Assembly: GCF_002150005.2 (NCBI RefSeq)
Contig: NZ_MSPP01000006.1
Span: forward strand, 1-64,000
Direction: 5' to 3'
Length of the DNA: 64,000 bases
Origin: Marivivens niveibacter
GTDB taxonomy: Bacteria; Pseudomonadota; Alphaproteobacteria; Rhodobacterales; Rhodobacteraceae
Shown: piece after piece, positions 20,266 through 49,426 of the stretch
Layout of the letters: each line of letters begins with the position of its first letter
Numbering within the stretch: position 1 is the stretch's first letter
Notes under the pieces: generated by a model
Told to the model about the DNA's origin: nothing
Database searches by the model: none
Seen by the model: only the letters and a program-made list of their open reading frames with translations
Made by a program: the position numbers and the translations under genes

Positions 20266-21369
20266 GCTGTTCGATACGCCCAATGCCGTGCCGATCAGAC
20301 CCAAAATGCTTCGGGCCGCATTAACAGGGCTTTCGGTTGCGTAGACCAAATCGCCGTCCATTAGATCGAAGTTACGCGCAGCAAACAAACCGTCTGCCGT
20401 TGTCAGATCAATCGTGAACACAACGCGTTCCTTATTCGGGCCGCCTGCATCTGAACGTACCGCCGTTAATGGATATTCACGCAGAACCAAAATACCTTTG
20501 GGGTTCGCGCGGGCCGCATCGACACCGCCGATAATCGACAACGCTTGCGCAGCGGTCACAACGTCGGAAGGAAAGACATGTTCGGCTTGCGATCCCGCAG
20601 CACCCAGCGACAGGAATTTGCGTTCATCTTCGGTCACGATAATGCGATCGCCGCCTCGCACCTCTGCATCCAATTCAGGGTGATCAAACAGTCGTTCTAG
20701 AGAAATGCCATAAATATGCTGACCACGGATCAACGTCATTTGCGGGTTTTCTAATGTTGCCGCTGCACCGCCTGCTTGGGCCAGCACGGACATCACGGTG
20801 ACATCGCGACCCTCTAACGGATACACTCCAGGGGAAGATACGCCCGAAACCAAATTAACGTGGTTCGCACGGCCCGGTTTGACTTGTACCTGAACCTGCG
20901 CCGATGGAATGGTTTCGGCATAGCGTTCTTCGATACGGTCGCGCAGAGTATCAATCGACATACCAGCAACGCGCAAATCACCAATATACGGTAAATTGAT
21001 TTCACCGTTCGACGACACAATCACGTCCTGCAACTGGGCCATGCGACCACCCATGCCCGCCAGCAGCGAATTTTCTTCGGTGTCCCAAACGGTCACAGAA
21101 ATTGCATCGCCCGATGCGACGATCAACGATGACGGTTGACCTGCGTTGCGGATCCAGCTGCGGGCCTCTTCTCCGACGGCTGGCCAATACGACAACGCAG
21201 CGCGGGTTTCTTCTGTGACGGGAACGACTTGAAAATTCAATGCCTCTTGATTTTCAGGTCGAGAGGCCGAAATTACTTCGGATTGGAAGCCTGCCCCACG
21301 CGGCGTCACGCACGCCGTCAGCCCCAAGCAAAGGCCAGCGGCCACGATCATGCGAAGTGGAAACCCCAT
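20260..21369 (-). CDS. wza: Outer-membrane polysaccharide export lipoprotein (Wza/KpsD-like)
   Basis: The 369-residue product starts with a lipoprotein signal (GLCLGLTAC; lipid on the cysteine) if the ATG at 21369 is used; upstream in-frame starts exist but would bury the signal. A polysaccharide export domain (SSLIVASGDAISVTVWDTEE, NGEINLPYIGDLRVAG) is followed by SLBB-type repeats (VSGVSSPGVYPLEGRDVTV, EVRGGDRIIV). It forms the outer-membrane exit for the capsule. It is transcribed towards the RTX protein gene and divergent from glf. Confidence 0.9.
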   Translation of the reverse strand: MGFPLRMIVAAGLCLGLTACVTPRGAGFQSEVISASRPENQEALNFQVVPVTEETRAALSYWPAVGEEARSWIRNAGQPSSLIVASGDAISVTVWDTEENSLLAGMGGRMAQLQDVIVSSNGEINLPYIGDLRVAGMSIDTLRDRIEERYAETIPSAQVQVQVKPGRANHVNLVSGVSSPGVYPLEGRDVTVMSVLAQAGGAAATLENPQMTLIRGQHIYGISLERLFDHPELDAEVRGGDRIIVTEDERKFLSLGAAGSQAEHVFPSDVVTAAQALSIIGGVDAARANPKGILVLREYPLTAVRSDAGGPNKERVVFTIDLTTADGLFAARNFDLMDGDLVYATESPVNAARSILGLIGTALGVSNSL

Positions 21370-40960: not shown

Positions 40961-41175
40961 ATCCGTAACAATTAGGGCTGATTTCTCCTCGGCCTTAGAG
41001 TGGAACAACCTTCGGGAAAAAGGCAACTCTTTTTCCGAAACAGCCAATTTCACCCAAACCTGTGGAAAACTCTTGCCAGAATCTAAATCCTGTCGCATGT
41101 ATATACGAAAAAAACGGAAATAACGGCAAAAACCGTAACAAACGGTTAGACGGCCGAGGCGAGAAAGAGAGACAG
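40961..41175 (+). promoter_or_regulatory. repA promoter/operator region
   Basis: The region just upstream of repA is rich in ACGG-containing repeats, with a perfect 6-bp dyad at 41131-41147 (AACCGT, 5-base spacer, ACGGTT). RepA or RepB of repABC modules repress their own operon through a site here, so the dyad is a candidate operator. The 5' part also serves as leader and promoter of the divergent regulator gene. Confidence 0.45.
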
Positions 41176-42375
41176 ATGGGCCAACACCCAAAGGCGAATT
41201 TGCGCATTGATACCATCGTAGGCCAGCATGCCGCAATGCTGTCCGAACGACTACAAGCGCATCGCGCACAGCTATTCCCACCACATGCGCGAAAAGAATT
41301 GCGCAAGTTTACCAGTGGCGAAGTGGCAGACCTGTTGGGTGTGAAAGATGCCTATTTGCGCAAGCTTAGTCTCGAATCCAAAGGGCCAGACCCTGAAATT
41401 CGCGGCAATGGTCGCCGTTTTTATTCGCCCGACGATATCGTTGCTTTGCGCGAGTACCTGGAAAAGGGCGCCAAGGTGCCCGGCACCTATATGCCAGGAC
41501 GCCGCCCGGGCGACCATTTGCAGGTTATTTCGGTCATCAACTTCAAAGGTGGCTCTGGTAAAACGACCACATCCGCACATTTGGCGCAAAAACTGGCGCT
41601 AGATGGCTATCGCGTTTTGGCAGTAGATGTTGACCCGCAGGCGTCTTTTTCCGCATTGCACGGTTTCCAACCAGAGTTTGACCTTCTGGACGGCGGCACC
41701 CTGTACGATGCGATCCGATATGATGATCCTGTATCGATCCGTGATGTGATTCAAAAAACATATTTCCGCAATCTGGACATCATTCCAGGCAATCTGGACC
41801 TTATGGAATTTGAACACGACACGCCGCGTGCATTGGCTCAACGGGACGGGAGTCTGTTCTTTACTCGCGTCGGCGATGCGCTGGCCGAAGTCGAAGATGA
41901 TTACGACGTTGTCATCGTCGACTGTCCGCCACAGTTGGGCTTTTTGACGATGTCCGCTCTGTCTGCTGCAACGGCTGTGCTTGTCACCGTTCATCCGCAA
42001 ATGTTGGACGTTATGTCGATGTGCCAATTCCTGTTGATGACATCGAACCTTTTGGGCGTCGTGGCAGAAGCCGGCGGCGACATGTCCTACGATTGGCTGC
42101 GTTATGTCGTGACACGCTATGAACCAGGTGACGGTCCGCAAAACCAAATGGTGTCGTTTATGCGATCGATGTTTGGCGAACACGTTCTGAATCACACGAT
42201 GCTGAAATCCACAGCGATTTCTGACGCTGGCCTGACAAAGCAAACTCTGTGGGAAATCGAAAAATCACAGTTCACGCGTTCGACCTATGATCGTGCGATC
42301 GAAAGTATCACCAACGTTTGCAGTGAAATCGAAACACTGATTCAAGACGCATGGGGACGTAACAATGGCGCGTAA
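41176..42375 (+). CDS. repA: Plasmid partitioning ATPase RepA (ParA family)
   Basis: The 399-residue protein has an N-terminal helix-turn-helix region (FTSGEVADLLGVKDAYLRKLSLESKGP) and a ParA ATPase domain with deviant Walker A INFKGGSGKTTTSAHLAQ, Walker A-prime LAVDVDPQ and Walker B VVIVDCPPQLGF. It is the motor ATPase that positions the replicon, and also autorepresses the operon. The 11-base overlap with repB is typical of repABC. Its presence marks the window as extrachromosomal or derived from such an element. Confidence 0.95.
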   Translation: MGQHPKANLRIDTIVGQHAAMLSERLQAHRAQLFPPHARKELRKFTSGEVADLLGVKDAYLRKLSLESKGPDPEIRGNGRRFYSPDDIVALREYLEKGAKVPGTYMPGRRPGDHLQVISVINFKGGSGKTTTSAHLAQKLALDGYRVLAVDVDPQASFSALHGFQPEFDLLDGGTLYDAIRYDDPVSIRDVIQKTYFRNLDIIPGNLDLMEFEHDTPRALAQRDGSLFFTRVGDALAEVEDDYDVVIVDCPPQLGFLTMSALSAATAVLVTVHPQMLDVMSMCQFLLMTSNLLGVVAEAGGDMSYDWLRYVVTRYEPGDGPQNQMVSFMRSMFGEHVLNHTMLKSTAISDAGLTKQTLWEIEKSQFTRSTYDRAIESITNVCSEIETLIQDAWGRNNGA

Positions 42376-43264
42376 GGGCATTTTGAACGGCCTGATGGAT
42401 CAGGCTGCGGCACCACAAACCGAAACACGGGTGGATCCAGCAAAACCACGCTACGCCAAAGGTGCAATCGGCGCAGTTAGCCAATCAATCGCTGAACTGA
42501 AATCTCGTTCGATCGTTCAGGTCGATCCGCGGATGATTGATGACGCCGGAATGAAGGATCGTCTGGAAAAAGACGATATCGACGCGCTGTGCGATAGTAT
42601 CAAAGCGTATGGCCAGCAGGTTCCTGTTTTGCTGCGCCCAAATCCGAACGATCCTGAACGTTATCAGATTGTTTACGGTCGTCGCCGTGTCGCTGCGTTG
42701 AAAAAGCTCAACATCCCAGTCAACGCGATGGTCCGCGTTCTAAATGACCGCGAACTAGTCATTGCGCAGGGTCAGGAAAACTCTGCCCGTAAAGACCTGT
42801 CATTCATCGAACGCGCAAACTTTGCACGTCAGATGCGTGACGGAGGATATGAACGCAAGGTCATTTGTGATGCCCTCAATGTCGATAAGACATTGATTTC
42901 ACGTATGCTTTCCGTGGCAGACAGCGTTCCATTGGACCTAATCGAAGCGATCGGAGCCGCGCCATCTATCGGTCGTGATCGTTGGATGAAATTGTCGGAC
43001 AAATTAGACGGCCGCGACATGGTTTCAGCTGCAAAAGGCGATACATCCGACGCCCGGTTCGAAGCTGTCTTTAGCGCCCTTACCCCGCCAAAGGCCCCAG
43101 CGCCAATGCCCGACATCATTCGGGTCGAAGGCGAAGAAATCGCGCGTGTCGCCCGTAAACCATCGAAAACGGTTCTGACGATGCCGCGCAATGGATTTGA
43201 CGAATGGCTACTGGCCAATCTCGACCAGATTCACCGTAGCTGGAAACAGTCTACGGAAGAATAA
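42365..43264 (+). CDS. repB: Centromere-binding partition protein RepB (ParB family)
   Basis: A 299-residue ParB-type protein. ParB nuclease-fold signature GQQVPVLLRPNPNDPERYQIVYGRRR, the EN(S)ARKDLSFIERANFARQM box and a helix-turn-helix (RKVICDALNVDKTLISRML) bind parS. It should recognise the 16-bp palindromes at 43382, 47152 and 47571. It overlaps repA by 11 bases, and repC starts 180 bases downstream, separated by the antisense RNA region. Confidence 0.95.
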   Translation: MARKGILNGLMDQAAAPQTETRVDPAKPRYAKGAIGAVSQSIAELKSRSIVQVDPRMIDDAGMKDRLEKDDIDALCDSIKAYGQQVPVLLRPNPNDPERYQIVYGRRRVAALKKLNIPVNAMVRVLNDRELVIAQGQENSARKDLSFIERANFARQMRDGGYERKVICDALNVDKTLISRMLSVADSVPLDLIEAIGAAPSIGRDRWMKLSDKLDGRDMVSAAKGDTSDARFEAVFSALTPPKAPAPMPDIIRVEGEEIARVARKPSKTVLTMPRNGFDEWLLANLDQIHRSWKQSTEE

Positions 43265-43302: not shown

Positions 43303-43373
43303 AACAAAAGAAAAAGGCCCCCCGAGGCAAACACCCCAGAAGGCCCGTTTCGGTTCTAGCACCTCCGAAAATG
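43303..43373 (-). ncRNA. Probable antisense counter-transcribed RNA of the repABC module
   Basis: Between repB and repC, minus-strand reading gives a -35-like TTGACA (43396-43391) that overlaps the parS palindrome, then 17 bases and a weak -10-like CATTTT (43373-43368). Downstream lies a strong terminator: a 12-bp stem with G-T pairs (43316-43345), loop TGTTTG, followed by a run of T. RepABC plasmids encode a short antisense RNA exactly here that represses repC. The terminator is well supported, the promoter less so; the 5' end is not exact. Confidence 0.7.
43316..43345 (-). terminator. Terminator of the antisense RNA
   Basis: On the minus strand, GGCCTTCTGGGG pairs with CCTCGGGGGGCC around a TGTTTG loop and is followed by TTTTTCTTTT. 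It can end the antisense RNA. Confidence 0.8.
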
Positions 43374-43381
43374 AGCTATTT

Positions 43382-43397
43382 GTTGACAGCTGTCAAC
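43382..43397. other. parS-type palindrome copy 1
   Basis: GTTGACAGCTGTCAAC, a perfect 16-bp palindrome, matches the GTTnnnnGCnnnnAAC form of repABC centromere sites. It is between repB and repC, the classical place. The same sequence recurs at 47152 and 47571. It overlaps the -35 of the antisense RNA. Confidence 0.85.
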
Positions 43398-43443
43398 GGG
43401 CGTCGTGTGCGGCGGGCAAAAAAGTTTTGCCATGTGAAAAATC

Positions 43444-44568
43444 ATGCACGTTATTTCAACGACGCCTTTTGGGCAGCGGCCGGTAACGGCTGGCCTAATC
43501 AAACGAGCCGCAATTCGGCAACAGGCCCCTACCCTTCCACGCGTTCGCAAATGGGATCTTTTACGCGAACTATGCGCAGCGAAAAAAACGTTTGGACTAA
43601 ACGACCGCGACATCGCCGTATTGAACGCATTAGTCAGTTTTCACAAATCCGAAGAACTTGACCAAGAAGATCAGCTGATTGTGTTTCCGTCCAACGCCAC
43701 ACTGTCAAACCGTGCCCATGGTATGCCCGAAAGCACACTGCGCCGCCACATCAGCAAGCTTGTTAAATCGGGTCTCATCTTGCGCAACGACAGCCCGAAT
43801 GGAAAACGTTACGCGATGACGTCGCGCTCTGGAGACATCGTACAAGCCTATGGCTTTGACCTGCGCCCCCTGCTTGTTCGCGCATCAGAAATCATCGAAG
43901 CCGCAGAAACGCAGCGCCAGAAAGAAGCCGAGCGTAAAGAGCTACGAAATGAGATTATCATCCTCAAACGCGACGCTGACAAACTCATCGAATACAGTCA
44001 CGAAATCGGCCTGAAATACGATTTAGACGAACCAAAATCACGTCTAGCTGAGCTAGCAAAGTTTCTACGTCGGAAATTGGATGTATCGGCTCTATCCCAG
44101 CTGAAACAGACACTGATTGTCCTTGTAGACAACATCAAGGAGTGGCTGGGGATAAACCCCAATCAAACACCAAAAATGAGCGGCAATGACATCCAAAATG
44201 AGCGGCACTATTCTAATTCAAATAAAAATACTGCTGACTCTGAACAGACCACCGTTCCATTGCCAATGGTCCTACAGGCATGCCCAGATATTCAAGATTT
44301 TGCCGATCGACCTTTGCGAAACTGGCATGATTTCATTTCATCCATGTCCATCATCAAATCCATGATGGGTATCACAGCAGAGACATGGGAACATGCGATG
44401 AAAATCATGGGCCCACAAACCACAGCTGTTGTGACCGCAGGAATTTTGCAAAGAATGGGTGAAATTAAATCACCAGGCGGCTACCTACGACGCCTCACGC
44501 AAAAAGCTGAGAAAAAATCATTCTCTCCTATGCCCATGATCATTGCGCTGTTACGCCAAACAAGTTGA
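43444..44568 (+). CDS. repC: Replication initiator RepC
   Basis: The 374-residue protein begins with the RepC signature TTPFGQRPVTAGLIKR, has a winged-helix DNA-binding region (SNRAHGMPESTLRRHISKLVKSGLI), a charged coiled-coil middle and a C-terminal DUF-type domain (PLRNWHDFISSMSIIKSMMGI, SPGGYLRRLTQKAE). RepC initiates replication at an origin lying within its own gene in repABC plasmids. There is no clear ribosome site before the ATG, which fits regulation by the antisense RNA. Confidence 0.94.
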   Translation: MHVISTTPFGQRPVTAGLIKRAAIRQQAPTLPRVRKWDLLRELCAAKKTFGLNDRDIAVLNALVSFHKSEELDQEDQLIVFPSNATLSNRAHGMPESTLRRHISKLVKSGLILRNDSPNGKRYAMTSRSGDIVQAYGFDLRPLLVRASEIIEAAETQRQKEAERKELRNEIIILKRDADKLIEYSHEIGLKYDLDEPKSRLAELAKFLRRKLDVSALSQLKQTLIVLVDNIKEWLGINPNQTPKMSGNDIQNERHYSNSNKNTADSEQTTVPLPMVLQACPDIQDFADRPLRNWHDFISSMSIIKSMMGITAETWEHAMKIMGPQTTAVVTAGILQRMGEIKSPGGYLRRLTQKAEKKSFSPMPMIIALLRQTS

Positions 44569-44600
44569 CAACCGGACAGGGTTAAGACCCTTTGCACGCT

Positions 44601-45305
44601 ATGACCACAATCAACATTCAATCAATTACGTACAAATACGGCGATCGAACCGCCCTATCTAACGTCAGTTTGAAACTGACGGAACGCCGCATCGCGATTG
44701 TAGGACGCAATGGGTCAGGGAAATCAACGCTTGCACAAGCGATTTGTGGTCTAATCAAACCAGATAGCGGCAAAGTTCTGGTCAACGATGTTGATGTTTT
44801 GAATGATCGACCTGCAGCCTTGAACACCGTTGGAATCATTTTTCAAAACCCTGATCATCAGATCATTTTCCCCACAGTGGCCGAGGAAATTGGGTTTGGG
44901 ATCCGTCAATTAGGTGCTTCAAAACACGACGCGAAAACTCGTACTGTTGAGGTTTTGAAACGGTTCAATCGAATGGACTGGGCGGATCGTCCTGTTTCCA
45001 ATTTTTCACAAGGCCAAAGACAGTTGGTCTGCTTGATGTCGGTGCTGGCAATGGCTCCAAAAGTGATTGTTCTTGATGAACCATTTAGTGGGCTGGATAT
45101 TCCAACAAAGCGGGCACTGCAAAAACGCTTTGTTGGGCTGGAACAGAGCCTAATTCACATCACGCACGACCCTGAATTAGTTCGCGACTATGACAGATTG
45201 ATTTGGATCGAAAACGGCGAAATCGCTGCTGATGGTACGCCCGATGCTGTGTTGCCAGATTTTCTAGCTGCGATGGAGGCCGCCGATGCTGGCTTTGACC
45301 TCTGA
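44601..45305 (+). CDS. bioM: Biotin ECF transporter ATPase BioM
   Basis: The 234-residue ATPase has Walker A GRNGSGKST, the Q-loop FQNPDHQIIFPT typical of ECF/CbiO ATPases, signature NFSQGQRQLVCLM and Walker B VIVLDEPFSG. It energises biotin uptake with BioN and BioY. An upstream TTG would add only three residues; the ATG at 44601 is preferred. It follows repC by 32 bases and could share its transcript. Its last codons overlap bioN by 20 bases. Confidence 0.93.
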   Translation: MTTINIQSITYKYGDRTALSNVSLKLTERRIAIVGRNGSGKSTLAQAICGLIKPDSGKVLVNDVDVLNDRPAALNTVGIIFQNPDHQIIFPTVAEEIGFGIRQLGASKHDAKTRTVEVLKRFNRMDWADRPVSNFSQGQRQLVCLMSVLAMAPKVIVLDEPFSGLDIPTKRALQKRFVGLEQSLIHITHDPELVRDYDRLIWIENGEIAADGTPDAVLPDFLAAMEAADAGFDL

Positions 45306-45900
45306 CATCCCTACCCCGCTGCATAAATGGTCGGCTGGGTTAAAGCTTGCGCTGATGTCAGGGGCCATTGTGACCCTATTCTGGCTTAAGTCGCCAATTT
45401 ATTTAGCCTTAGCTGCGGTTTTGACCTCCGGGCTTTATTTGTCGTTCAGTGTCTATTTCGCCCGAATTGGCCTGAGCATGATGCGGCCCCTACGGTTTCT
45501 GTTAGCCTTTATTTTGATATGGCACGTTGTGACCGGAGATGCGCAAACTGGGATCGCGATTGTGTTGCGGCTGTCAACTGCGGTGGCTTTGGCTAATCTT
45601 GTAACGCTGACGACGCGATTGGATGACTTGATTGATGTGACTTATCGCATGATGTCGCCGCTCAGTTTTTTGGGTGTGTCACCTAAACCACTTGCTTTAG
45701 CGATTGCATTGGTTGTGCGTTTCGTCCCGGTCCTGCTCACGCGCGCAAATCAGATGCAGCTGGCGTTCAAAGCAAGATCCACGAAATTCCCGACCTTTTA
45801 TATTATCCTGCCTTTAATCATGTCCGTACTAGATGACGCCGATCATGTTGCCACTGCCCTTCGTGCCAAAGGTGGGCTAGATGGCGCGTACAAACCCTGA
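45286..45900 (+). CDS. bioN: Biotin ECF transporter transmembrane protein BioN
   Basis: The 204-residue EcfT-type membrane protein has about five helices and the coupling motifs ARSTKFPTFYI and ALRAKGG (A-R-G-type signatures that contact the ATPase). It joins the ATPase BioM to the biotin-binding BioY. It overlaps bioM by 20 bases and is followed after 33 bases by bioY. Confidence 0.9.
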   Translation: MLALTSDIPTPLHKWSAGLKLALMSGAIVTLFWLKSPIYLALAAVLTSGLYLSFSVYFARIGLSMMRPLRFLLAFILIWHVVTGDAQTGIAIVLRLSTAVALANLVTLTTRLDDLIDVTYRMMSPLSFLGVSPKPLALAIALVVRFVPVLLTRANQMQLAFKARSTKFPTFYIILPLIMSVLDDADHVATALRAKGGLDGAYKP

Positions 45901-45933
45901 TATGCACGCGCAGCATTTAGTGGGAGAGAGCAC

Positions 45934-46485
45934 ATGCAATCGAAAGAAAATGATCTGGTTCTGATCGCCCTATTCGCCGCATTGGTTGCGGTTTTGGGTT
46001 TGATCCCTTCGATCCAGATGCCTTGGGGTATTCCAGTCACAGCGCAAAGCCTGGGCGTGATGCTTGCTGGCGCAGTATTGGGCGCTAAACGTGGTGGTCT
46101 TTCGATCCTGCTGTTTATTGGCCTTGTCGCGCTAGGTTTACCATTGTTAGCTGGTGGCCGTGGTGGTCTGGGCGTTTTTGCGTCCCCTACTGCAGGCTTT
46201 ATTTTTGGTTTCCCTGTCGCCGCGTTTGTGACGGGTCTTATCATGGAAAAACTGCGGTTTGATCCAACCGTAGCATCAGGCATCGCGTCGTTCATCGGCG
46301 GTATCATTGTTTTGTACGTGATGGGCATCTTTGGTTTCTACATGCTGACCGACAAATCGCTGGGCACGTCGATTTCGATCATGGTTACCTATATCCCAGG
46401 TGACTTGGTCAAAGTTGTGCTCACGGCAATCATTGTTGGTGCATTGGCCAAAGCGCGTCCACAAAGCCTGTTGTCGCGTCACTAA
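45934..46485 (+). CDS. bioY: Biotin-binding S-component BioY
   Basis: A 183-residue six-helix protein with the BioY features IPWGIPVTAQSLGVMLAGA-type segment (MPWGIPVTAQSLG), LGLPLLAGGRGGLGVFASPTAGF and the C-terminal YIPGDLVKVVL. It binds biotin with high affinity. A GAGAGAG-type ribosome site precedes the ATG. The ATG of the nitroreductase gene overlaps its TAA stop. Confidence 0.95.
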   Translation: MQSKENDLVLIALFAALVAVLGLIPSIQMPWGIPVTAQSLGVMLAGAVLGAKRGGLSILLFIGLVALGLPLLAGGRGGLGVFASPTAGFIFGFPVAAFVTGLIMEKLRFDPTVASGIASFIGGIIVLYVMGIFGFYMLTDKSLGTSISIMVTYIPGDLVKVVLTAIIVGALAKARPQSLLSRH

Positions 46486-47156
46486 TGGAAACATCGCGCA
46501 CCATACGTGAACGGCGTTCGGTGCGCGAATTTACAGATCGTGCAGTCGACAAACAGACGATTGCAAATCTTTTGGAACTGGCCCGCTGTGCGCCCTCTGG
46601 CGCGAATTTACAGCCGGGCCAGTTTCACGTTTTAACGGGCAAACCGTTGGCGGACCTGAACGCACAGTTGACAGCCGGCATTGCAGCGGATCGGCCTCAG
46701 GTTTCTGAATATTCGTATTTTCCAAACCCGCTGTCGAAACAGCTAAAGGCGCGTCAACGCACGGCTGGGTATGCGCTGTACCAAGCGTTGGGAATCGAGA
46801 AGCGGGATTTGGATGGTCGGCGTGCGCAGTTTGAACGGAACTACCGTTTCTTTGACGCACCCGTTGGGATCATCATTTCGATTGATCGCGATATGGGCAA
46901 AGGCTGTTGGATGGACATGGGGATGGCGATCCAAACGTTTTTGCTTGCAGTTCATGATGCTGGCTTAGCTGCTTGTGGTATTGGCGCTATCGCGAATTAC
47001 GGTGACTTGGTGCATGAGGTGTTAGAGCTGCCTAACGATCAGGTCGTGGTCGCAGGTATTGCACTGGGATATGCGGCGGATGCTGCGGTGAATGATTTTC
47101 GTACGGAACGCGCTGCGTTGGCAGAGTTCACTACGTTCCGAGGTTTCGACGGTTGA
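46485..47156 (+). CDS. Nitroreductase-family flavoprotein
   Basis: A 223-residue FMN-dependent reductase with the typical RERRSVREFTDRAVDKQ start and CAPSGANLQPGQFHVL, and the C-terminal GIALGYAADAAVN. It is translationally coupled to bioY. Its TGA stop is provided by the second copy of the parS palindrome. The substrate is unknown; a link with biotin or flavin metabolism is suggested only by position. Confidence 0.85.
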   Translation: METSRTIRERRSVREFTDRAVDKQTIANLLELARCAPSGANLQPGQFHVLTGKPLADLNAQLTAGIAADRPQVSEYSYFPNPLSKQLKARQRTAGYALYQALGIEKRDLDGRRAQFERNYRFFDAPVGIIISIDRDMGKGCWMDMGMAIQTFLLAVHDAGLAACGIGAIANYGDLVHEVLELPNDQVVVAGIALGYAADAAVNDFRTERAALAEFTTFRGFDG

Positions 47157-47167
47157 CAGCTGTCAAC
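47152..47167. other. parS-type palindrome copy 2, forming the stop codons of two convergent genes
   Basis: GTTGACAGCTGTCAAC. On the plus strand its TGA (47154-47156) is the stop of the nitroreductase gene. On the minus strand the mirror TGA (47165-47163) is the stop of the thiolase gene. So the palindrome fixes the ends of both genes. Confidence 0.85.
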
Positions 47168-48227
47168 CGGTCACTCGCAGGGCGGACCCAATACCTCCAG
47201 CGGCTGCTATCGCCGCGATGCCTGACTTTCCGGTGCCTGCCAAATCATGAAACAGACGCACGGCCAGAATAGCCCCAGACGCCCCAATCGGATGACCACG
47301 TGCCAGCGCGCCGCCTTTTGGGTTTACGATTTTCGGATCAATGCCGGTCGCATCAACTGTCGCAATGCATTGGGCTGCGTAAGCCTCCATTATTTCAGCT
47401 TGAGCGATGTCGTGGGTTCCAAGGCGATTGATTGCTTCGATCGGGGCTAATGCTGGCTGTGCTGGGTCTCCACCGATGCTGACGTATTTATCAATTCGTA
47501 CTGATGCACGAGTAATCAAATCTGCCGCTACGATCACAATTACCGCAGCCGCGTCAGCAGCGACCGCCGTGTTGACAGCTGTCAACTGCCCCGTGACAAC
47601 AGGTGCGCGGGCAACCAATCGTGGCGACAGGTCGCGTGTAAATGGATCGTCCAATTCGGCGCCGAGCGGGACAATTTCAAACCGTAGCGCGGTCCTCGAG
47701 TTCATGGCTTTGTCGTGGCTGTCCATAGCCCAGACGTCTTGTCGTTCGCGTGGAATGTTCAGCGCGTCAGCCGCAACAGGAAGGTCAGGATCGCGGTCAG
47801 GCCAAGGCGAAAAGGGCGGTCTGTCATAGGCAACAGGTGGGCCGTCAATGGGAACGGCCATTCTGATAGGGCGACGAGAATGAGATTCCAATCCGCCAGC
47901 GACAACCACCTTTGCAAGGCCCGACCGGACCATTGCGAGGCCCATACCGATCGCATCTAATCCGCCGGCACACTGGCGGTCGATTGTCAGGCCGGCAACG
48001 TGTTCGGGCAACCCTGCGGCTAATGCGGCAAGTCGGGCAGGGTTGCCGCCGCCGCCAATCGCATTCGATAGGATGACTTCATCGACTTGGTGTGGGCCGA
48101 TCATCGCGTCGTCTAATGCTGCGCGTATCACTGGTGCCGCCATGTCGTGTAATGACAGGGTGGATAGCGCGCCGCCCTTGGGGGCCACGATTGTGCGCCG
48201 TGCTGCGATGATATGGGCGTCGATCAT
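47163..48227 (-). CDS. Thiolase-family protein (atypical; YhfS-like)
   Basis: A 354-residue thiolase, about 40 residues shorter than usual. The nucleophile cysteine is in LTIDRQCAGGLDAIGMG and the histidine in GGALARGHPIGASGA. The second catalytic cysteine is missing: the C-terminus reads AIAAAGGIGSA where thiolases have a Cys, and the NEAFA motif reads MEAYA. The gene overlaps the preceding acyl-CoA ligase by four bases. In Bacillus subtilis a similar pair (yhfS and yhfT) stands with bioY under BirA control, so a role in biotin precursor or acyl-CoA metabolism is plausible. It contains a parS palindrome within the coding frame. Confidence 0.8.
   Translation of the reverse strand: MIDAHIIAARRTIVAPKGGALSTLSLHDMAAPVIRAALDDAMIGPHQVDEVILSNAIGGGGNPARLAALAAGLPEHVAGLTIDRQCAGGLDAIGMGLAMVRSGLAKVVVAGGLESHSRRPIRMAVPIDGPPVAYDRPPFSPWPDRDPDLPVAADALNIPRERQDVWAMDSHDKAMNSRTALRFEIVPLGAELDDPFTRDLSPRLVARAPVVTGQLTAVNTAVAADAAAVIVIVAADLITRASVRIDKYVSIGGDPAQPALAPIEAINRLGTHDIAQAEIMEAYAAQCIATVDATGIDPKIVNPKGGALARGHPIGASGAILAVRLFHDLAGTGKSGIAAIAAAGGIGSALRVTG
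47571..47586. other. parS-type palindrome copy 3, inside the thiolase coding sequence
   Basis: GTTGACAGCTGTCAAC again, identical to the copies at 43382 and 47152. Read on the minus strand it encodes part of QLTAVNT in the thiolase. It lies 403 bases from copy 2. Confidence 0.8.
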
Positions 48228-49426
48228 AAACGGTCCACCATTCCGCGAAGAGCTGCAATATCAGGTTTGCCCGAAAGGGTCAGAGGAAATGTTGACAGCC
48301 GGAACGCCTTTTTCGGGGCGTCAGCGTTTAACAATTGCCGTGCCGCATCCTGCATCTGATCTGGAGCAATATCGCCCTGATATAGAATGATTGGCACTGC
48401 GCCGCGTATGTCATTCGAGCGTGGCAGAATGGCGATATGATCTACGCCAAGGATCGTGGCCAGCTTTGCCTCGCTCGGTTCGGGGAAATAGTTGCGGTCA
48501 GCAACGGTGAACATGCGGTCGCTACGTCCCATAAGGTACAGGTAACCGTCACGCAGCGCGCCAATTTCGCCAACCGTCACCCATGATCCGTCCGTCCGCG
48601 TTTGGCCCAATTCGGGCGATGCATAGCCATCGAATAGATAGGGCGATTTCACCCAGACCTCACCAATTCCGTTTTTGTCCGCGTTACGGATTTCAATTTG
48701 AACAAACGGGTAGGGCGATCCAACGGATCCAGCTGGCGTGTTGTCATCGGACATAGTGACAAAGCTGGTTTCAGCTGCACCATAAAATTCTACGACCCGT
48801 GCATTTGGGGCGTTCTGTTTGATTGCCGCGCGGGTTTTGTCATCCAAATGTCCGCCACCGATTGCGATGACCCTAAGGTTCTGGAAAGGTTGGTTTAGCG
48901 CCACGCGAGCTTGGGTCGGTGTGGCGTATAGGATAGTAGCATCCTGCAGGGCGGTTTTTTGAACGGCTGGTTTTTCGCCTGAAACCACGTCAACGGTGAT
49001 ACCTTGGTGCAGTCCTTCGCACAAAGCATAGAGTGATAAAGAACTGTCCAGGCTTCCTAGGATCACAGACCTGTCTGATGACGTAATTCCGAACAGGTCT
49101 TTGTTCTGCTCGAAACTGGCTGTCCAGCTAGAGGCATGGCGCCTGATGCGTTTCGGCGCGCCAGTTGAACCAGAGCTTTGGCTATGGATGACATCGGGGT
49201 CGTCATCGTAATCAACATCGGCACCGTTGGTGACGCAAAATGGTGCACCCGACCACAGGCATTCCAGAATCCGCAACAGGGAGGGGCGGACTGGGGTAGG
49301 GCGGATCGTTGTGACGCGCCCACCGGTCGATCGTTCGACATAAGGATGATCAATAGCCGACCCACAATGCAGCAACCGAGAGGTGCGCGAAGGACGCAAA
49401 CAAGGCAAGGAGGTCATCTGTTCCAT
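48224..49426 (-). CDS. AMP-binding acyl-CoA ligase (YhfT-like)
   Basis: A 400-residue adenylate-forming enzyme, shorter than typical 500-residue ligases. Motifs are HSQSSGSTGAPKRIRRH for the P-loop, VVEFYGAAETSF for the adenylate site and the C-terminal domain with DGYLYLMGRSDRM; the final lysine motif is LSGKPD. It is preceded by AAGGAGG. Its coupling to the thiolase and closeness to bioMNY recall the yhfTS pair. Whether it activates pimelate or a fatty acid cannot be told. Confidence 0.82.
   Translation of the reverse strand: MEQMTSLPCLRPSRTSRLLHCGSAIDHPYVERSTGGRVTTIRPTPVRPSLLRILECLWSGAPFCVTNGADVDYDDDPDVIHSQSSGSTGAPKRIRRHASSWTASFEQNKDLFGITSSDRSVILGSLDSSLSLYALCEGLHQGITVDVVSGEKPAVQKTALQDATILYATPTQARVALNQPFQNLRVIAIGGGHLDDKTRAAIKQNAPNARVVEFYGAAETSFVTMSDDNTPAGSVGSPYPFVQIEIRNADKNGIGEVWVKSPYLFDGYASPELGQTRTDGSWVTVGEIGALRDGYLYLMGRSDRMFTVADRNYFPEPSEAKLATILGVDHIAILPRSNDIRGAVPIILYQGDIAPDQMQDAARQLLNADAPKKAFRLSTFPLTLSGKPDIAALRGMVDRL

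Follow-up and report, generated by a model that had tools for sequence, protein, structure and literature searches.

Identical palindromes, probable repABC parS sites, in the repB-repC gap and in biotin-cluster genes of a Marivivens niveibacter replicon

The first 64,000 nt (positions 1-64000, here called the window) of a 136,834-base contig (C9) in the draft genome of Marivivens niveibacter contain three exact copies of a 16-nt palindrome, GTTGACAGCTGTCAAC, one between the replicon genes repB and repC and two further downstream among genes of a biotin uptake cluster. The explanation we favour, at a probability of about 85%, is that all three are parS sites bound by the replicon's own RepB, that sites 2 and 3 constitute a distal centromere, and that site 1 in addition holds the -35 box of the promoter for the antisense RNA RepE. 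The positions of the palindromes, their uniqueness, their conservation, the amino acid replacement at one of them and the promoter pattern at another were obtained in the present analysis. The three sites are as follows.

43382-43397, no strand assigned: parS site 1, GTTGACAGCTGTCAAC, exact match in the repB-repC gap; the minus strand has a perfect -35 box, TTGACA (43396-43391)
47152-47167, no strand assigned: parS site 2, exact match between the convergent nitroreductase and thiolase-like genes; TGA stop of both
47571-47586, no strand assigned: parS site 3, exact match within the thiolase-like gene, whose reading frame translates it as LTAVN

Uniqueness of the palindrome

Searching the window at up to three mismatches returns the same three sites and no others, against a mean of 0.19 matches in shuffled windows (largest value 2; three or more in 0 of 100). 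Four distinct perfect 16-nt palindromes occur in the window and GTTGACAGCTGTCAAC is the sole one that repeats. In the whole draft genome (12 contigs, 3,069,114 bases, 99.92% complete), where base composition alone predicts approximately 0.0007 copies, the palindrome is present exactly three times at zero mismatches (reversed control, 0), and even at two mismatches, when the reversed control gives 2 matches, no copy beyond these three is found. The original prediction, made from the letters of the window, had described an identical 16-mer at 43382, 47152 and 47571 that, as far as could be seen, recurs nowhere else in the 64 kb and is not due to chance, and had counted many further copies across the genome as evidence against a centromere; the exact copies, the mismatch searches, the shuffles and the base composition all bear out this description. 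The looser form GTTN4GCN4AAC has five matches in the window in all (shuffle mean 1.4), the two additional ones, at 20371 and 48970, being non-palindromic. All three sites agree with the repABC parS consensus GTTNNCNGCNGNNAAC as quoted in PMC9040568, and none is more than 4.4 kb from repB, the rest of the draft genome having no copy, as is expected of the centromere of a repABC replicon.

Identity with a known parS and distribution in the family

The palindrome is identical to the parS of Paracoccus aminophilus plasmid pAMI4, which the RepB protein of that plasmid binds in vitro in an electrophoretic mobility shift assay (PMC9040568), and a full-text search for GTTGACAGCTGTCAAC among the papers available returned no other. 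The RepB proteins encoded by the window and by pAMI4 are 53% identical, with nearly the same helix-turn-helix (VICDALNVDKTLISRML and VICDALAIDKTVLSRML, respectively). Among 30 RepB proteins of the family, 19 have the DKT helix; 17 of these have a GTTGACNGCNGTCAAC-type palindrome inside the fetched locus, some in the form of one-mismatch variants of the 16-mer only, and the remaining two have an exact 16-mer approximately 1.5-1.7 kb downstream. For the 11 RepB proteins lacking the DKT helix, a near-palindromic GTTN4GCN4AAC was found in 0 of 11 loci.

Across 198 genomes of the family, the 16-mer occurs in 23 genomes as 49 copies, 37 of which (in 17 genomes, by hand count) lie within 5 kb of a RepB match; the reversed control, searched without mismatches, gave none in the family genomes listed. 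On the other side, 12 of the 49 copies have no listed RepB match within 5 kb, and with roughly 0.17 copies expected from composition in the sample these stray copies also exceed chance. A wider scan, pooled with all other fetched loci, yielded at least 244 deduplicated copies from 184 loci, including 82 downstream of repC (51 no more than 100 nt past where the repC match ends, and 31 at 100 nt to 6.3 kb), 27 in gap classes and 91 without a rep gene on the fetched stretch. Since these stretches are mostly 3-8 kb long and the queries were Rhodobacterales RepA, RepB and RepC, the last group says little either way. Taken together, the sequence identity with pAMI4, the similarity of RepB, the 37 of 49 copies near a RepB match and the conservation of position in relatives described below support identification of the three palindromes as repABC parS sites.

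Lone exact 16-mers away from rep genes occur in two genomes of the same genus (G005 and G006, at L140:9874 and L005:1501), in a gene with LTAVNGIGVWTAE that, judged by its motif, is presumably DNA-glycosylase-like. LTAVN is also the open-frame reading of several other isolated copies in the family. Such lone copies are more numerous than chance would give.

Gene setting and placement of the sites in relatives

The genes repA, repB and repC are adjacent and point in one direction, as in a repABC replicon. Downstream of them come bioM, bioN, bioY, a nitroreductase-family gene and then convergent thiolase-like and AMP-binding genes.

41173-42375, plus strand: repA, ParA-type ATPase (Pfam AAA_31 and others; 90-95% identity to six syntenic relatives)
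42365-43264, plus strand: repB, ParB-type centromere-binding protein (Pfam RepB 4e-14, ParB_N 3e-7)
43444-44568, plus strand: repC, replication initiator (Pfam RP-C 7.5e-61, RP-C_C 3.5e-34)
44564-44572, plus strand: GTTGACAAC, overlapping the stop codon of repC; by sequence comparison, possibly what remains of a parS
44592-45305, plus strand: bioM, ATPase (Pfam ABC_tran)
45286-45900, plus strand: bioN, transmembrane, CbiQ family (Pfam CbiQ)
45934-46485, plus strand: bioY, biotin transporter component (Pfam BioY 1.6e-33)
46485-47156, plus strand: nitroreductase-family gene (Pfam Nitroreductase), stop codon within parS site 2
47163-48227, minus strand: thiolase-like gene (Pfam Thiolase_N, Thiolase_C), stop within parS site 2, holds parS site 3
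48224-49426, minus strand: AMP-binding (acyl-CoA ligase-like) gene of the same cluster (Pfam AMP-binding)

Marivivens sp. JLT3646 and Aestuarium zhoushanense have plasmids with the same gene order, which recurs in four further genomes of the genus, giving seven syntenic replicons (the window, L137, L138, L139, L142, L145 and L146) with three to five exact copies per fetched stretch. An exact parS is present in the repB-repC gap in 7/7, and the nitroreductase-thiolase junction has at least one exact copy in 7/7; in L139, L142, L145 and L146 this junction holds two copies 35 bp apart, one of them mismatched in L142 and L145. The thiolase interior carries a copy in five of the seven (absent from L137 and L138), the repC stop in four (L139, L142, L145 and L146) and bioN in two (L137 and L138). 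Where those four replicons have a full parS at the repC stop the window reads GTTGACAAC, which is possibly what is left of a lost parS and is consistent with a 7-nt internal loss. In the JLT3646 plasmid there is also a one-mismatch copy, GTTGACAGTTGTCAAC, at L145:4925-4940 in a hypothetical gene approximately 15 kb upstream of repA.

The palindrome reads alike on both strands, and its frames give TGA, Leu-Thr-Ala-Val-Asn or Val-Asp-Ser-Cys-Gln. At site 2 it supplies the TGA stop codon of both convergent genes, and in relatives the stops of repC, nitroreductase and thiolase genes fall within parS copies. The thiolase of L137 and L138 (refetched as L266 and L265) ends in LTAVN followed by the stop, and the repC stop lies within a copy in Haematobacter and Palleronia plasmids, two of 12 further annotated plasmids. 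A Frigidibacter cas3 gene contains two copies in the VDSCQ frame, in agreement with the cas genes named among the parS-holding open reading frames in PMC9040568.

DNA-level constraint at site 3

Comparison of the five thiolase orthologues that bear the internal parS, in which the window is 65-66% identical to the other four at the DNA level, showed a longest invariant run of 19 nt that contains the palindrome, the next longest being 11 nt. Third codon positions are invariant in 20.5% of cases overall. The Val of LTAVN is present in 5/5 proteins with the parS, whereas the corresponding residue is Ala in 32/32 orthologues without a parS there (30 tabulated and two from the same genus, G001 and G002; L177 aligns beside a gap). 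At the first position of the pentapeptide, where the parS encodes Leu, the 30 tabulated orthologues have Ile (17), Val (11), Thr (1) or a gap (1). From these alignments, selection to keep the centromere appears to have altered the protein sequence of the enzyme from Ala to Val. The five parS-bearing thiolases are close relatives, and this tells against a stronger claim: the change from Ala to Val may have been a single event, so that what is seen is one replacement that was kept, and the evidence is of retention and not of repetition.

An alternative is that only the gap copy is functional and that copies 2 and 3 have been left behind neutrally or carried along by earlier rearrangements. The absence from the window of the repC-end copy of four relatives, with its possible scar, agrees with this in suggesting that copies can be dispensable. 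However, site 3 is identical at 16/16 positions within a gene that is only about 65% identical at the DNA level and imposes an unusual residue, the junction retains at least one exact copy in all seven replicons, and pAMI4, despite its gap copy, requires the distal set to be fully stable (PMC9040568), all of which makes neutral persistence improbable.

It could also be supposed that site 3 has been kept since the protein itself needs LTAVN, the match in DNA being a coincidence of codon usage, and 16-mers away from rep genes do often read LTAVN, as in the DNA-glycosylase-like gene of the two genus relatives. Against this stand the invariable Ala of the parS-free orthologues, the absence of Leu from the first position in all 30 tabulated, the Gly and Ala that the two best solved thiolases align at the Val position (in two alignments), the invariance of third positions in just 60 of 248 invariant-residue codons, and the absence of the 16-mer from the rest of the genome. 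A protein-level requirement is accordingly given a very low probability, and constraint on the palindrome as DNA is preferred.

The thiolase-like protein (47163-48227) departs from the two best solved thiolases elsewhere in its sequence as well, having Ala in place of the Cys of a C-terminal CxGGG-type motif, a residue with a catalytic role in thiolases, and MEAYA in place of NEAFA. These two differences suggest that its chemistry may differ from that of an ordinary thiolase.

The biotin cluster as host of the distal copies

The least probable explanation, with hardly any weight left to it, is that the 16-mer serves as operator for a transcription factor controlling the biotin cluster: two of the three copies are located in that cluster, but sites 2 and 3 are at gene ends or intragenic with none upstream. 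None of 28 family loci containing an orthologous thiolase holds the 16-mer; these loci span 15.6-19.9 kb each, with the AMP-binding gene in 28, bioY in 25 and a repB or repC match in none. The same-genus genomes G001 and G002 have the thiolase and no copy. Of the 12 further annotated plasmids, 11 have exact copies next to repAB or repABC on stretches where no biotin gene is annotated, and in the other, L274, every copy has one mismatch. The BioR-like motif TTATNNATAA was considered as a biotin-regulator operator and set aside, having 0 matches in the window against 0.63 in shuffles.

A general association of biotin clusters with partition genes is likewise not claimed: it holds in four of six further plasmids but in only one of the 28 family loci (ParA, ParB, RepA, RepB and RepC, E up to 1e-8). 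On plasmids L230, L233, L234 and L235 the biotin cluster, or most of it, does lie near non-repABC partition genes.

Site 1 and the antisense RNA promoter

According to PMC3155836, an antisense RNA gene lies between repB and repC in all known repABC replicons. In the window two features on the minus strand would correspond to such a gene and its promoter.

43304-43361, minus strand: putative antisense RNA (RepE/ctRNA) gene, start approximate; weak Rfam match and a covarying stem in 28 gap loci
43368-43373, minus strand: -10-like hexamer CATTTT, three of six matches including A2 and T6, spaced 17 nt from the -35 box of site 1

On the antisense strand, 23 of 27 gap copies are followed at a spacing of 16-18 nt by a -10-like hexamer (at least four matches to TATAAT, or three including A2 and T6), compared with 18% in shuffled flanks. 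No -10-like hexamer is found at that spacing on the sense strand of gap copies, and the other classes and orientations of copy have one in 0-10%, without enrichment. A TGCKA motif near the expected RNA start is likewise found in 23 of 27 gap copies and in at most two of any other class. The promoter count takes in L130 and leaves out L038, L070 and L124, which have no repC match. Downstream, 28 selected antisense stretches share a hairpin followed by T-rich sequence, with 97.6% of cells paired and changes on both sides in four of 11 pairs. Their covariation score is 0.518; shuffles gave 0.403, none of 500 reaching the observed value, and slid versions gave no more than 0.308. This alignment omits L027, L142, L181 and L070 as near copies, L054, whose stretch ends early, and L038, L124 and L130, which do not show the pattern.

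Several observations weigh against this assignment. Four of the 27 gap loci (L130, L178, L182 and L193) fail the -10 test and the 27 include near relatives, while in the window CATTTT passes barely, being a weak 3/6 match, and a stricter consensus promoter scanner reported no promoter in the gap, CATTTT included. The terminator-like stem at 43346-43315 is one found against 0.8 in shuffles, and related sequences can beat the covariation shuffle control without structure. The Rfam match to ctRNA_p42d (43304-43350; 27.5 bits, E 0.011) is below the gathering score of 50, and the Rfam search of 12 other gap-locus sources, at E up to 0.5, gave no ctRNA. Rfam was therefore dropped as proof of the antisense RNA, and the promoter pattern and the stem were used instead. 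On these, a further action of the gap copy on the antisense-RNA promoter is probable, in line with the suggestion in PMC9040568 of a specialised role for the gap parS, of which occlusion of the RepE promoter by RepB at site 1 would, we infer, be a concrete form.

Proposed mechanism

In the explanation favoured here, the RepB of the plasmid would bind all three palindromes. We infer this binding in the present organism, together with the effect on the promoter and the role of sites 2 and 3 in partition, where RepB would nucleate a partition complex on the distal centromere and RepA would move the complex. At site 1, RepB bound over the -35 box would lower RepE and thereby free the expression of RepC, linking copy control to partition. 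Copies 2 and 3 may have come to lie in biotin-cluster genes because these can accommodate the palindrome, as TGA stops on both strands at site 2 and as LTAVN at site 3, the price at site 3 being the loss of an otherwise invariant Ala.

The original prediction had placed the first copy in the repB-repC gap and the others beyond bioMNY, where the gene calls also put them, and had taken all three as centromere repeats of the repABC form extending into metabolic genes. The repABC form is upheld by the consensus fit, the pAMI4 identity, the proximity to RepB and the positions kept in relatives, and the extension into metabolic genes by the DNA-level conservation of the intragenic copy; the part that needs amending concerns the gap copy, which is probably more than one further centromere repeat. 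A wider proposal is that one palindrome does several jobs, as centromere, -35 box of an antisense promoter, stop of two genes and coding sequence, and that selection on the centromere overrode an invariant Ala of the enzyme and so tied the biotin cluster to the segregation machinery. This we advance tentatively, at slightly less than even odds.

Relation to known systems

An arrangement of this sort has already been described as typical of Rhodobacterales, so the finding belongs to a known kind. In the repABC replicons of that order, parS sites tend to occur in the repB-repC gap and in the following open reading frames and intergenic regions, approximately 0.5-4 kb downstream of repC, and positive selection of such intragenic copies has been proposed (PMC9040568). 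What differs here is that the host genes are a biotin uptake cluster and that the coding copy is conserved at the DNA level with a changed residue. Plasmid pAMI4 likewise has the same 16-mer with one gap copy and more downstream of repC, but its three distal copies occupy a 2-kb non-coding locus 11.5 kb from repC (PMC9040568), unlike the distal copies of the window, which stand 2.6 and 3.0 kb beyond the end of repC, the nearer one where two genes end and the other within a gene. Lying at gene ends or within genes, sites 2 and 3 do not form a 3parS-like locus, that is, a long non-coding AT-rich distal block. The chromosomal parS sequence of Pseudomonas aeruginosa differs from GTTGACAGCTGTCAAC. 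The two systems are alike in having parS within coding sequences, nine of ten chromosomal parS being intragenic in P. aeruginosa, although the protein concerned there is a chromosomal ParB (PMC4368675).

As far as the literature available to us goes, what is new is the measured constraint on intragenic DNA with residue replacement, the shared stop codons and the gap-specific promoter pattern. The first of these gives comparative, DNA-level support to the hypothesis of PMC9040568 that positive selection acts on intragenic parS in plasmids of Rhodobacterales. The suggested specialisation of the gap parS is also given the form of a concrete, testable model in which RepB would occlude the RepE promoter. 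The findings further suggest a way for centromere repeats to become established in metabolic genes, either in a frame that gives a stop codon or as a peptide that the protein tolerates, with cargo genes thereby tied to the partition locus.

A second palindrome, TTCCCCGCGGGGAA, was noted in two of the non-repABC plasmids mentioned above. A full-text literature search for it returned one unrelated plant paper only. It is present five times (four exact, one mismatched) in L230:13107-15347 of a Thioclava FTW29 plasmid and three times in L233:2285-4200 of Pseudosulfitobacter P3, in and around parA and parB, making these copies candidate parS sites inside partition genes.

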